From: Niabella ginsenosidivorans
GTDB taxonomy: Bacteria; Bacteroidota; Bacteroidia; Chitinophagales; Chitinophagaceae
Assembly (NCBI RefSeq): GCF_001654455.1
Contig: NZ_CP015772.1
Span: forward strand, 2,542,001 to 2,606,000
Direction: 5' to 3'
Length of the DNA: 64,000 nt
Part shown: positions 4,260 through 35,336 of the stretch, piece after piece
How the letters are laid out: each line of letters begins with the position of its first letter
How positions within the stretch are numbered: position 1 is the stretch's first letter
Made by a program: the position numbers and the translations under genes
The notes under the pieces: model-generated
Seen by the model: the letters and a program-made list of their open reading frames with translations, nothing else
The model's database searches: none
Told to the model about the DNA's origin: nothing

Positions 4260-5456
4260 TTAGTCGCCCCCGATGGTAACCGTCTGAATCATTTTTTTTG
4301 CAACCGGTTTTTCCCTTAGCATCGCAGGCGACCAGGTGGGCATCTGTTCCAGTTTAGCCATCAGCTCTTTGTCTACATAATCATCCACCCCCTTTAATAC
4401 CTTAAAGTTAACGGGGCGTCCGTCTGTATCAATAATAAATTCCAGTTGCACGTATGCTTTGGCAATACTGTCCGGCAGATCCTTTGCCAGCTCTTTTCCA
4501 GCCTGCTTTAAATACTCAGCAAAAGCGGATGCACCACCGGGATATTCGGGCCATTTGGCCACTGCGTCTGCAACATGATCAATTTTCCGGTAGGTAGGCA
4601 CAAATTTTGACTTGGGCCGTTGTTTGGGCAGGAACCTCGGACTGAGCGTTGGCGCATCATTAACAATGTATTCCCCGTTGTCACGAATCATAATTACCGG
4701 CAGCTCTTTGTGCTGCTCAAAATATTCAAAAGCCTCTTCCAGTTTTACATTCAGTGCTTTGTATTCTGCATCATTTTCCATTGTCTTCTTCAGGAACTCA
4801 TAACTTCTCTGAACGCTGTAATTAATAGGAAAAATATGCACTGGTATATAATCCAGGCCGGCGCTTTTTGCACTGGCTGCTATAATGTACAGTTCATCAA
4901 TCTGGTCATTTCTTATGGGAAGACAGCCCACTGTAGCGCATCCTCCATGGATAAAGATATCACCACCCGGCTTTGCCTGATCCGCCAGCACCTTATCAGA
5001 AGGGTTAGGATAATTCAGGCCCAGGGAAAGATAATAATTGCTGTTAGGATTAAATTCATTGATATAATAAAAGCCTTCAGGCACCTGATAATCTCCTTCA
5101 AAACGCTTTGGTCCCAGCGATCCGGCAAGTGCACAGATCTTATAGATCTTTAAAAGCTTATATTCGTCTTTTATAGAATTTTTCACCCAAACTTCCAGCT
5201 GGCTGTCGTATTTGAATGCCCGTATATATACATAGCGTGCCGGCCAGTCAAGCCCTTTTAGCTTAAACAGGCTTTTCAGGTATTCTCCTTTACGTTGAAA
5301 AGATTCTCTTGGATTCCGGTTATTGATCTGTGCATCAAAAAATGATCCGTAAGAAGCCGGAGATGTATAGGCGGTTTGTGTATAAGCGAAGATGGAAAAT
5401 GCAAGAATCCCTGCAATAACTAAAAATAATTTTCTTCCTTCCTGTTGTAAAGCCAT
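4260..5456 (-). CDS. YafK/DpaA-type L,D-transpeptidase family protein with C-terminal TonB_C-like domain
   Basis: A 398-residue exported protein: an N-terminal hydrophobic segment (residues 9-27, FLVIAGILAFSIFAYTQTAY) is a signal anchor or signal peptide. The central domain is a YkuD fold of the YafK type: the active-site stretch is DIFIHGGCATVGCLPI, with the catalytic Cys in VGC. In E. coli the YafK homologue DpaA cuts peptidoglycan from Braun lipoprotein; other YkuD enzymes make 3-3 crosslinks, so the exact reaction here is open. The last 80 residues (EFIIDTDGRPVNFKVLKGVD ... MPTWSPAMLREKPV) look like the TonB C-terminal domain found in many Bacteroidota proteins. About 270 bp of AT-rich DNA lies upstream, in which I recognise no gene. 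Confidence 0.85.
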   Translation of the reverse strand: MALQQEGRKLFLVIAGILAFSIFAYTQTAYTSPASYGSFFDAQINNRNPRESFQRKGEYLKSLFKLKGLDWPARYVYIRAFKYDSQLEVWVKNSIKDEYKLLKIYKICALAGSLGPKRFEGDYQVPEGFYYINEFNPNSNYYLSLGLNYPNPSDKVLADQAKPGGDIFIHGGCATVGCLPIRNDQIDELYIIAASAKSAGLDYIPVHIFPINYSVQRSYEFLKKTMENDAEYKALNVKLEEAFEYFEQHKELPVIMIRDNGEYIVNDAPTLSPRFLPKQRPKSKFVPTYRKIDHVADAVAKWPEYPGGASAFAEYLKQAGKELAKDLPDSIAKAYVQLEFIIDTDGRPVNFKVLKGVDDYVDKELMAKLEQMPTWSPAMLREKPVAKKMIQTVTIGGD

Positions 5457-33018: not shown

Positions 33019-33445
33019 AGCTGGACGCCCGGCGGCACTTACCGGTCTGCCGCGGGGACCGGTGTTACCATCAACTACAGCATATAAGTAGTATGTCCGC
33101 CCGTTTGACCTGCCCGGGTTATTGGCGGACGCTTATCGGTTGAAATACTATGCCCCGGTACTCAATATTGTTATCCTTCTTACAATTGCATTTCTTTTAG
33201 AAGACCGGGAGCAGCATCGCATCATCCGGACTTTTTGAATGTTTTTGCACGTTTTCCGAGAGCAGGCGCCGCAAATTGAAAACCCGGCATGGCGATCTAT
33301 TTACACTCAGCCTTAATTGGAATCTGTCATTAACAGCACTCATAAAAGCGTTGCCTTTAAGTTCATTCGGATGACAAGTTTTTTTTAATCGTCATCCCGA
33401 CTTGTTAATTAGGGATCAAAATTAATGAGTAATGACAAGTGGTAT
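33019..33445. other. 427-bp non-coding region left of the insertion sequence
   Basis: No gene recognised. It contains a 7-bp inverted repeat GTCCGCC/GGCGGAC (33095-33130) after the regulator gene and a GTCATCCCGACTTG segment (33391-33404) of the same flavour as the CTTGTCAT repeats right of the insertion sequence. AATGACAAG (33431-33439) is the left arm of the hairpin split by the insertion. Confidence 0.55.
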
Positions 33446-33447
33446 CT

Positions 33448-33626
33448 TTGAAAGAAGCAGGTTACAGCAGCGTAGCCGTCGTATCGATTAGTGTTTTGTA
33501 CCTCCTGTCGACACTTGCTTCAAAGAATGGTGCATTAATGTTTGGTGATACTGTTTGCAGCAGCATTCCCGTTTGGCACATTGCTTTTTTATTGAACCTC
33601 TTTGAGCTGTAACCTGCTTTTTTTAA
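33448..33626 (+). ncRNA. Candidate IS110 bridge RNA
   Basis: The 5' non-coding part of the IS element is closed by a long-range stem: 33455-33468 (AAGCAGGTTACAGC) is the exact complement of 33606-33619, and with two G-U pairs the stem extends to 33448-33468 with 33606-33626. The enclosed RNA is about 179 nt, close to the 177-nt bridge RNA of IS621, and lies upstream of the recombinase as in the IS110 group. Within it TTCAAAGA (33519-33526) is complementary to the left element end (33445-33452), and GTCGTATC (33478-33485) matches 7 of 8 bases of the reconstructed target GTGGTATC. Guide assignment is tentative. Confidence 0.6.
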
Positions 33627-33647
33627 TTAATACTTAAAAAAGTAGTT

Positions 33648-34958
33648 ATGTCAAATTTAGTCAGTTTTGAACAACACAATGCGTGTGCAGCCGCTATTGA
33701 TATCGGCTCAAAGAAAATCTTCGTTTCCTGTGATGGGATTACGGTTAAAAGTTACGATACTTTTACGTTTAGCTATCGTAAGTGTATTGAAGATCTTAGG
33801 AGCCAGCAGGTGAAAAATGTATGTATGGAGGCTACAGGCGTCTACTGGATTGCGCTACATGAGCTGCTGGAGCAAGCCGGTTTCTGTGTATGCCTGGTAA
33901 ATCCCAAAGAGGTAAAGCAGGTAAAAGGTCGGAAGACGGATGTAGCCGATGCCTGTTGGATGCAGAAAATGTTTAGTGCAGGATTGGTACGGCAAAGCTA
34001 TATACCGGCCGGTAGATTGAAAGAACTCCGGATGCTAATGCGGGAGCGGGAAGATATTATCAGTATGGGCAGCAGTTATGTAAATAAAATGCAGAAGGCA
34101 TTAGAGTTGATGAACATCAAATTGACGGAGGTTATTTCTCAGATTACTGGTGTCAGTGGTATCCGTATGATAGAGGCGATCCTTAGAGGGGAAAGGGACG
34201 GAAAGGTATTATTAAGCCTGTGTCACAAAAGTATAAAAGATAAAAAGGCAGACGAGGTATTGATGGCCTTAGAAGGCAACTACAATGAAAGCTGGCTGTT
34301 CTTGTTGGAACAGAACCTCAAGCTTTGGAAAATTCATGAGCAGCAAATACTCATAGTAGATCAGCGTATGGAAGTGTTGCTTTCTTTTCTGGAGCAAGGT
34401 AGTTCATTTGTAGCGCCGGTACATAAGGAGAAGCCCGTACGCCATCATAAGCCAATGATTAAGGATTTAAATCAAAAATTGCTCAATATATACGGTGTAG
34501 ATGCGGGCTGTCTGCCGGGAGTAACCAACTATTCTATGTTGAAGCTGCTGGGAGAAACAGGTACCGATCTGAGTAGATTTCCTACGGAAAAGCATTATGT
34601 AAGCTGGTGCGGGCTTTCCCCTGGTCATAACCAAAGCGGCAGCCGCAGCAGGAAAGCAAAAATGAAAAACAGTTCCAGAGTGGGCCAGATATTCAGGGAG
34701 ATCGCACAATCGCTGCTCAATAGCAAACATATAGCCATTGGAACATTTATACGCAGAATACGCACCAGGAAAGGTCCCGCAATTGCAATAAAAGCAGGAG
34801 CCAGAAAAATTGCTATTGCATTTTATAACTTACTGACTAAAGGGACAGCTTATTTAGAACAAGGAGCTGCTAAATATGAACAGCAATTAAAGCAACGCGA
34901 GCAACAGTATTTATTGAAACTGGCTACAAAACACAACTTGAAATTAGTTGAAATATAG
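33648..34958 (+). CDS. IS110-family transposase (recombinase)
   Basis: A 436-residue DEDD-type recombinase. The N-terminal RuvC-like domain supplies Asp18 (AIDIGSKK), Glu61 (CMEATGVYW), Asp98 and Asp101 (GRKTDVADA). A coiled, helical middle follows, and the C-terminal Transposase_20 domain has LPGVTNYSMLKLLGETGTDL, then FPTEKHYVSWCGLSPGHNQS and GSRSRKAKM; the Ser of NQSG is the likely catalytic serine. In IS621 such an enzyme uses a bridge RNA to recombine donor and target DNA. The frame is intact from ATG 33648, so the element may be active. Confidence 0.93.
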   Translation: MSNLVSFEQHNACAAAIDIGSKKIFVSCDGITVKSYDTFTFSYRKCIEDLRSQQVKNVCMEATGVYWIALHELLEQAGFCVCLVNPKEVKQVKGRKTDVADACWMQKMFSAGLVRQSYIPAGRLKELRMLMREREDIISMGSSYVNKMQKALELMNIKLTEVISQITGVSGIRMIEAILRGERDGKVLLSLCHKSIKDKKADEVLMALEGNYNESWLFLLEQNLKLWKIHEQQILIVDQRMEVLLSFLEQGSSFVAPVHKEKPVRHHKPMIKDLNQKLLNIYGVDAGCLPGVTNYSMLKLLGETGTDLSRFPTEKHYVSWCGLSPGHNQSGSRSRKAKMKNSSRVGQIFREIAQSLLNSKHIAIGTFIRRIRTRKGPAIAIKAGARKIAIAFYNLLTKGTAYLEQGAAKYEQQLKQREQQYLLKLATKHNLKLVEI

Positions 34959-34970
34959 TGCATTACATAT

Positions 34971-35336
34971 CTTGTCATTGGCACCGAACCTGCTTTCAGC
35001 GGGTGCGCAGAGGGATCTCATCTGTTACAGAGATCTCTCCGCTCGTTCTCCGAACTCGGTCGGGACGACGATCTTGTATATTATTGGCTTTCAATACAAT
35101 AACACACTTGTCATGAACAGCCTGACGAAGGATGATCCGGCTTCGCCAAGGGTAACATTTTGCTTATGCTGACTATTAATACTTTAAGAACTTGTCATGA
35201 ACAGTCCGACGAATTATGAGCAGCAATAAACATCACTTCCGTCCGGACGATATATTCCCAGAGCTTCCGACGGAACGCCGGAAGGTGTTTTAAAATGAAT
35301 GCATAAGCTCATCAGCAGTATAAAACCGATCAGCCT
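34971..35336. repeat. Repeat-rich non-coding region right of the insertion sequence
   Basis: It starts with CTTGTCATT, the right half of the split hairpin. A 10-bp imperfect hairpin (35010-35039, GAGGGATCTC/GAGATCTCTC) follows. A 24-bp unit beginning ACTTGTCATGAACAG occurs at 35106-35129 and again at 35190-35213 with 22 of 24 identities, each continuing into GACGAA. No gene is credible here. The units resemble GTCATCC..GACGAAGGA stretches at 33391 and 44802, so a dispersed intergenic repeat family is present. Confidence 0.65.

Follow-up and report, generated by a model that had tools for sequence, protein, structure and literature searches.

A predicted bridge RNA with reversed guide order upstream of an IS110-family recombinase gene in Niabella ginsenosidivorans

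The stretch analysed here, called the window throughout, is 64,000 nucleotides (nt) of the Niabella ginsenosidivorans genome (contig NZ_CP015772.1, positions 2,542,001 to 2,606,000; coordinates below count from its first letter). It contains an IS110-family insertion element with an intact recombinase gene, upstream of which we identify, by comparative sequence analysis, a bridge RNA at 33454-33620. Judging from these comparisons, the RNA is about 170 nt long and very probably carries its guides in the reverse of the order found in IS621; its position before the gene is that of the IS110 RNAs. The fold, the left target guide and the left donor guide are the parts that the comparisons support, the right target guide more weakly.

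Fold and conservation of the RNA and its recombinase

A preliminary description of this DNA had drawn attention to a long stem next to an intact DEDD recombinase gene, and these observations hold. The stem arms AAGCAGGTTACAGC (33455-33468) and GCTGTAACCTGCTT (33606-33619) are exact complements, and the extended 21-nt arms (33448-33468 and 33606-33626) are 90% complementary. The core of the predicted RNA (33454-33620, + strand) was delimited by a covariance model, covariation and folding, and has a closing stem of 15 base pairs (bp; 33454-33468 with 33606-33620, + strand) around two modules, target and donor. The target module holds the hairpin TAGTGT...ACCTC (33489-33504, + strand; helix 3, with 99% of cells paired), and the donor module (33520-33605, + strand) is closed by TCAAAGAA (33520-33527) pairing with CCTCTTTGA (33597-33605), a stem (helix 4) with compensatory changes in 8 of 8 pairs. 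The 179 nt including the extended arms fold at -53.7 kcal/mol, compared with -40.4 for shuffled sequences (standard deviation 3.7; z -3.55), and none of 200 shuffles folded as well.

Relatives of the recombinase were taken from public genomes (79 loci, from the best 80 of 436), and a covariance model built from eight RNAs was searched against 80 sources, namely the window and these loci. It gave 79 matches in 75 of the 80, on the strand of the recombinase gene. Seven of the matched sources had gone into the model and 68 are independent, some being near copies of one another. The model found no match in L049, L087, L097, L111 and L117 among these sources; the sequences of the first three start within or shortly before the recombinase gene. 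In 76 of 76 RNAs a downstream open frame of at least 358 amino acids (aa) starts at most 160 nt from the RNA. After two identical rows were dropped, the alignment, which was fitted to the model, comprised 77 sequences and showed compensatory changes in 43 of 47 pairs, and 0 of 500 shuffles reached any of five measures. Paired cells made up 91% of this alignment, compared with 64% when shuffled and 39-47% with slid partners. A stem lacking covariation had been named in advance as the outcome that would speak against a bridge RNA; all 15 pairs of the closing stem show compensatory changes across the 77 distinct sequences. When eight sequences were aligned without structure fitting, 26 of 47 pairs still had compensatory changes, four measures were reached by 0 of 500 shuffles and that of further pair types by 8 of 500. 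These results describe a conserved, structured RNA in the non-coding end of the element, as expected of a bridge RNA, and the covarying fold and the wide recovery of the model bear out the earlier identification of a bridge-RNA locus. The same model did not match an IS621 copy (E up to 1) or an IS4321 copy, and a search of Rfam at its gathering threshold returned 0 matches both for the window and for six other loci, among them an IS621 copy.

The adjacent gene (33648-34958, + strand) encodes an intact IS110-family DEDD recombinase of 436 aa, recognised by its domain matches and invariant residues, with scores above the cut-offs for PF01548 (71 bits), PF02371 (43 bits) and NF033542 (186.6 bits). 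It combines a DEDD RuvC-like N-terminal domain with a C-terminal domain bearing a conserved Ser, the arrangement of the IS110 superfamily; D18, E61, D98, D101 and S330 are invariant in 26 proteins, and their assignment as the catalytic set is our own. An AlphaFold2 model (mean predicted local distance difference test score 87) retrieved the IS621 and ISCro4 recombinases as sole structural matches at E <0.001 (11 chains). Profile scores of 88.4 to IS4321, whose protein served as a stand-in for the IS1111 group, and 84.3 to IS621 suggest that the recombinase is about equally remote from both. In the recombinase tree IS621 and IS4321 lie on very long branches, and their exact place is therefore unsure.

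Predicted guides in the target and donor loops

The element occupies 33402-34984 (1583 bp), its ends having been set by six copies in its own genome (subfamily A; 100, 99.7, 99.6, 99.6, 99.6 and 99.4% identity over the element) and by empty sites. Common to the six is only the sequence from the core dinucleotide AC at the left junction (33400-33401, the element starting at 33402) to the AC at the right end (34983-34984), although the 2-3 bases before the left core are also shared by four of the five other A copies. The right, or donor, end reads TTGGCAC (34978-34984, + strand), and past it the copies diverge. The 179-nt RNA stretch is identical in all six. A second subfamily, B, has five copies in the same genome with about 71% DNA identity to A (L017 and L019 are incomplete). 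Among 76 processed loci both junctions could be placed in 54, and these served for the tests of the right flank; eight of the 76 left junctions were set by hand, five of them among the 54.

Each side of each loop was compared with the flanks or ends of its own locus and with those of other loci, in permuted pairs (2000 permutations). This test is not circular because the best match was sought in own and foreign pairs alike; a position-by-position match matrix is circular, because junctions were chosen by match, and was not used as evidence. Permutation within clades used nine groups set by hand from the recombinase tree. The doubtful loci L052 and L083, together with duplicates, were excluded from the right-flank and left-end tests with n=50 and n=45, and from the comparisons of the donor loop with the inner right end and the flanks; both loci were retained in the within-clade tests and in the tests of IS621 order.

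The clearest signals come from the 3' sides of the two loops. The left target guide TGTCGAC (33506-33512, + strand), with the core at its end, matches the left flank: over 8 nt, the mean match to the locus's own left flank was 6.62 of 8 compared with 5.51 for other loci, the highest of 2000 permutations being 5.79 (n=76; z 12.0 within clades). The left donor guide TTGGCAC (33573-33579, + strand) has the same sequence as the element's right end, and here the own match was 6.75 of 8 compared with 5.84, the highest permutation reaching 6.12 (n=73; z 6.8 within clades). A bridge RNA is expected to have guides for the left target and the left donor with the core as part of them, and both are found here. 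Crossed comparisons of the guides were flat in the mean.

On the 5' side of the target loop, the putative right target guide GTCGTATCGAT (33478-33488, + strand) would be the complement of the top strand of the right target. Antisense matching of this loop side to the right flank gave z 4.6 and 4.0 at two adjacent offsets out of 22 tried (n=50) and z 3.5 within clades (p 0.0006, n=52), and same-sense controls were negative. A top-strand right target guide is thus found across loci (z 3.5-4.6), and is weak in the window's own copy. Two short segments had been read as guides in the preliminary description, and neither keeps that role. One, GTCGTATC (33478-33485), was thought to match the target at 7 of 8 positions, yet the joined target is matched at 5 of 8 at best; the target loop 5' side that contains it pairs with the right target, and same-sense comparison with the left target gave no match (z 1.3). 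The other, TTCAAAGA (33519-33526), is complementary to 33445-33452 at every position, but sits in a strand of the donor-module stem and is structural.

The donor loop 5' side behaves differently. Here TGGTGCATTAATGTTT (33528-33543, + strand) matches the left end in the same sense, and in the window the left-end segment ATTAATG (33421-33427, + strand) repeats 33534-33540. Across loci this likeness reached z 10.75 (n=45) and z 8.4 within clades (n=76), with shared runs of at least 8 in 16 of 65 loci compared with 0.94 expected; examples are GGCATAATGAG in L058, AAAGCAATAT in L055 and the ATTAATG of the window. The segment lies just before the left subterminal repeat, and an inverted repeat separates it from the core. 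This loop side had no match to the inner right end (n=21), the right flank or the left flank, and a weak same-sense likeness to the left end was seen for the tail of the donor loop 3' side (z 2.3, p 0.014, uncorrected). From these comparisons the donor loop 5' side probably helps to recognise the left end. It is a reasonable possibility, though on the whole a doubtful one, that the repeat is instead a sequence for transcription control or recombinase binding, present in both DNA and RNA and not a guide, which would be compatible with a bridge RNA with reversed guides. Its nearly fixed place before the subterminal repeat, near a possible promoter, would suit such a role, as would the negative result for pairing with the top strand next to the core. 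However, the segment is variable, and its changes keep step even within one clade; joint change of this kind fits base pairing better than it fits a fixed protein site.

Several observations weigh against a bridge RNA with reversed guides. A right donor guide complementary to the top strand next to the core looked convincing by eye in subfamily B, but across loci none was detected (z -1.2 to 1.7). The signal of the right target guide is weak, and in the window's own copy the right flank is a poor fit (gapped score 3.5 compared with a permuted mean of 3.86). In 11 loci, compared with 5.6 expected, the left target guide agrees with the right end at 7 of 8 positions or better. In most relatives the left junction was itself chosen by its match to the guide, so that only permutation tests, and not match counts, carry weight there. 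In all 11 copies of the window's own genome the left target guide matches the left target at 5-6 of 7 positions; the natural target of IS621 has one mismatch to its guide, an imperfect match there too. Lastly, among 21 further IS110-type loci (remoter kin and reference elements) the covariance model matches only 9, of which 6 at E <1e-4, and thus misses some remoter relatives.

If the RNA acts as these matches suggest, the ends of the excised element would join into a circle, and the RNA, once transcribed, would be bound by its recombinase. Recognition of the genomic site would then fall to the target loop and that of the joined ends to the donor loop, with strand exchange by the recombinase at the 2-bp core, AC here and AG in the other 76 RNAs.

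Alternative explanations and relation to known systems

Lying directly before the gene, and followed in the window by a run of seven T after the stem, the structure could be imagined as a 5' leader controlling how the recombinase gene is translated or transcribed, in the manner of an attenuator or terminator, and not as a guide. We consider this very improbable, given that the loops covary with target and donor DNA and that a run of at least five T is present at the stem end in only 9 of 77 loci; the closing stem as an intrinsic terminator in general was rejected on the same count (3 of 41 and 6 of 36 loci). A decayed element with a non-working RNA seems very improbable as well. One of the six copies, L010, does have a shortened frame (377 aa), but the other five frames are full-length, and copies 99.4-100% identical at different sites suggest recent movement. 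Least probable is a bridge RNA with the guide order of IS621, with which the RNA shares its general plan, its upstream place, its two modules and an ACCT-motif hairpin in the target module, since the four matches which that order predicts all fail (z 1.3, 0.2, 1.3 and -0.8; n=52) and the covariance model misses the IS621 copy at E up to 1.

In the same series of tests the reversed right target guide held (z 4.5), and in the IS621 copy, used as a positive control, the target match ATCGGGCCT sits 5' of the hairpin. The target guides of the predicted bridge RNA thus appear to be in the reverse order of those of IS621, which is the order reported for IS1111. The two groups were compared with the element trait by trait. 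The complement of the top strand lies 5' of the bottom-strand match, as in the IS1111 group, and not the other way round, as in the IS110 group; the RNA lies upstream of the gene, as in the IS110 group, and not downstream, as in the IS1111 group. Subterminal repeats, absent or of 2-3 bp in the IS110 group, average 8.1 bp here. The IS1111 group is marked by transposases of 330-350 aa with full-length IS1111 kinship, which the 436-aa recombinase does not share, and by short terminal extensions (7 + 3 bp); repeats are present here, with a left extension of about 30 bp.

Comparison with individual systems, made with the excerpted parts of the sources cited, gives the same mixture. As in IS621 (PMC11208160, PMC11208158), there is a DEDD recombinase with a C-terminal Ser, an upstream RNA with target and donor modules, a core within the guides, repeats as targets and scarless insertion. 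In detail the likeness proposed in the preliminary description breaks down: unlike IS621, the guides are reversed, the closing stem encloses both modules, subterminal inverted repeats of 5-16 bp are present, no right donor guide is detectable beside the core, the core is AC or AG and not CT, and the recombinase is 110 residues longer (436 aa compared with 326). The IS1111-family seekRNA systems ISEc11, ISKpn4 and ISPa11 (PMC11187229) resemble the element in guide order and subterminal inverted repeats, whereas their RNA is downstream, their recombinases have 330-350 aa and their left terminal extension is 7 bp, not about 30. ISEc21, of the IS110 family (PMC11187229), has an upstream RNA and matches to both target strands as here, but the opposite order of strand matches and a transposase of 358 aa. 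An IS110 subgroup with transposases of 395-455 aa (PMC11187229) includes the length found here, and a shared lineage is probable; the excerpts used give no guide assignment for this subgroup.

Guide order and RNA position had been reported as two traits dividing IS1111 from IS110, and PMC11187229 describes a few IS1111 elements with an upstream region, such as ISMtsp17; the traits are therefore known to mix, at least in placement. Within the excerpts we drew on from the literature on bridge RNA, seekRNA, IS110 and IS1111, no mention of an upstream RNA with reversed guides came to light; the figures of six diverse bridge RNAs in PMC11208160 lie outside these excerpts. We tentatively propose, with somewhat less than even confidence, a third lineage of RNA-guided IS110-type recombinases, present in at least nine phyla by record labels, which would join IS110 placement to IS1111 guide order. 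It would also read the donor differently: the two sides of the donor loop would match a single DNA strand, in one case beside the core at the right end, in the other some 20-30 bp into the left end, past a small DNA inverted repeat. Guide order and RNA position come apart in this element, so that the split between IS110 and IS1111 is not simple, and the evolution of guide RNAs becomes testable on real intermediates.

Core dinucleotide, ends, insertion sites and distribution

The left target guide ends in AG in 76 of 77 RNAs, and in AC only in subfamily A. Subfamily A has AC in both left guides, in the right end and in the targets, whereas subfamily B, in the same genome, has AG; the 5' guide of subfamily A ends in AT, where an AC core would ask for GT. 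The two subfamilies thus amount to a natural core-swap experiment in one genome, and the lineage would supply bridge recombinases with a different core (AG, with natural AC in this genome) and distinct RNAs.

Both ends carry subterminal inverted repeats, AATGACAAG on the left (33431-33439, + strand) pairing as a complement with CTTGTCATT on the right (34971-34979, + strand). Across relatives these repeats average 8.1 bp compared with 5.2 when permuted (z 13, range 5-16), with at least 7 bp in 37 of 44 loci, and the left terminal extension outside them is about 30 bp. Within this extension the inner inverted repeat of the left end (TTAATT, 33405-33410, with AATTAA, 33420-33425) recurs at the same place in relatives (own score 6.98 compared with 5.47 permuted, z 7.7, n=45). 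A possible promoter box, TATCTTTG (33443-33450, + strand), is predicted from its fit to TAnnTTTG, which we take to be the -7 promoter consensus of Bacteroidota; this motif occurs near the box position in 11 of 41 Bacteroidota-group loci, 1 of 36 remaining loci and 1.5% of background windows.

To the right of the element the flank is part of an interspersed repeat, of which 15 more near-complete copies were found (93-97% identity across the 100 bp used as query); strict target-repeat patterns had found few sites (3, then 7), and a longer right-flank query revealed the repeat family. Eight fetched copies are empty sites reading ...AATCGTCA[TC]CCCGAC/CAAACC..., and differ from the window's joined flanks over 21 bases at one position in three cases and at two in five, therefore pointing to scarless insertion with a 2-bp core. 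In the A copies and empty sites there is no target duplication beyond this short core, as is usual for the IS110 superfamily. The flanking repeat (33340-33401 and 34985-35085 of the window) has inverted arms, ATCGTCATCCCGACC and GGTCGGGACGACGAT, with one mismatch, and may be a repeat family of its own. Elsewhere in the genome, the subfamily B copy L019 (G000:C1:4371500-4375500) has an internally deleted recombinase gene and retains the RNA and both ends, and is possibly a non-autonomous element movable in trans. Beyond the eleven copies, PF02371 matches were found at G000:C1:1889807-1890040, 4927520-4927732 and 5407124-5407336, the last scoring like a subfamily B fragment.

By record labels, RNA matches come from Bacteroidota, Verrucomicrobiota, Pseudomonadota, Chlorobiota, Cyanobacteriota, Acidobacteriota, Gemmatimonadota, Chlamydiota and Spirochaetota; another two labels (Eubacterium and Bifidobacterium, both metagenome-assembled genomes) we regard as doubtful binning. 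Viral contigs contained remote relatives only (11 loci, 24-42% identity). In Verrucomicrobia FR_27 (L103, L104 and L106) several near-identical elements of the lineage occur in one genome, with three RNA matches within 3.5 kb in L106, and the left flank of one element resembles the right end of another, which suggests insertion beside an earlier copy. A further locus, L062, has two RNAs of the lineage (2781-2953 and 4357-4531) with an open frame of about 430 aa behind each, in what appears to be a head-to-tail arrangement.
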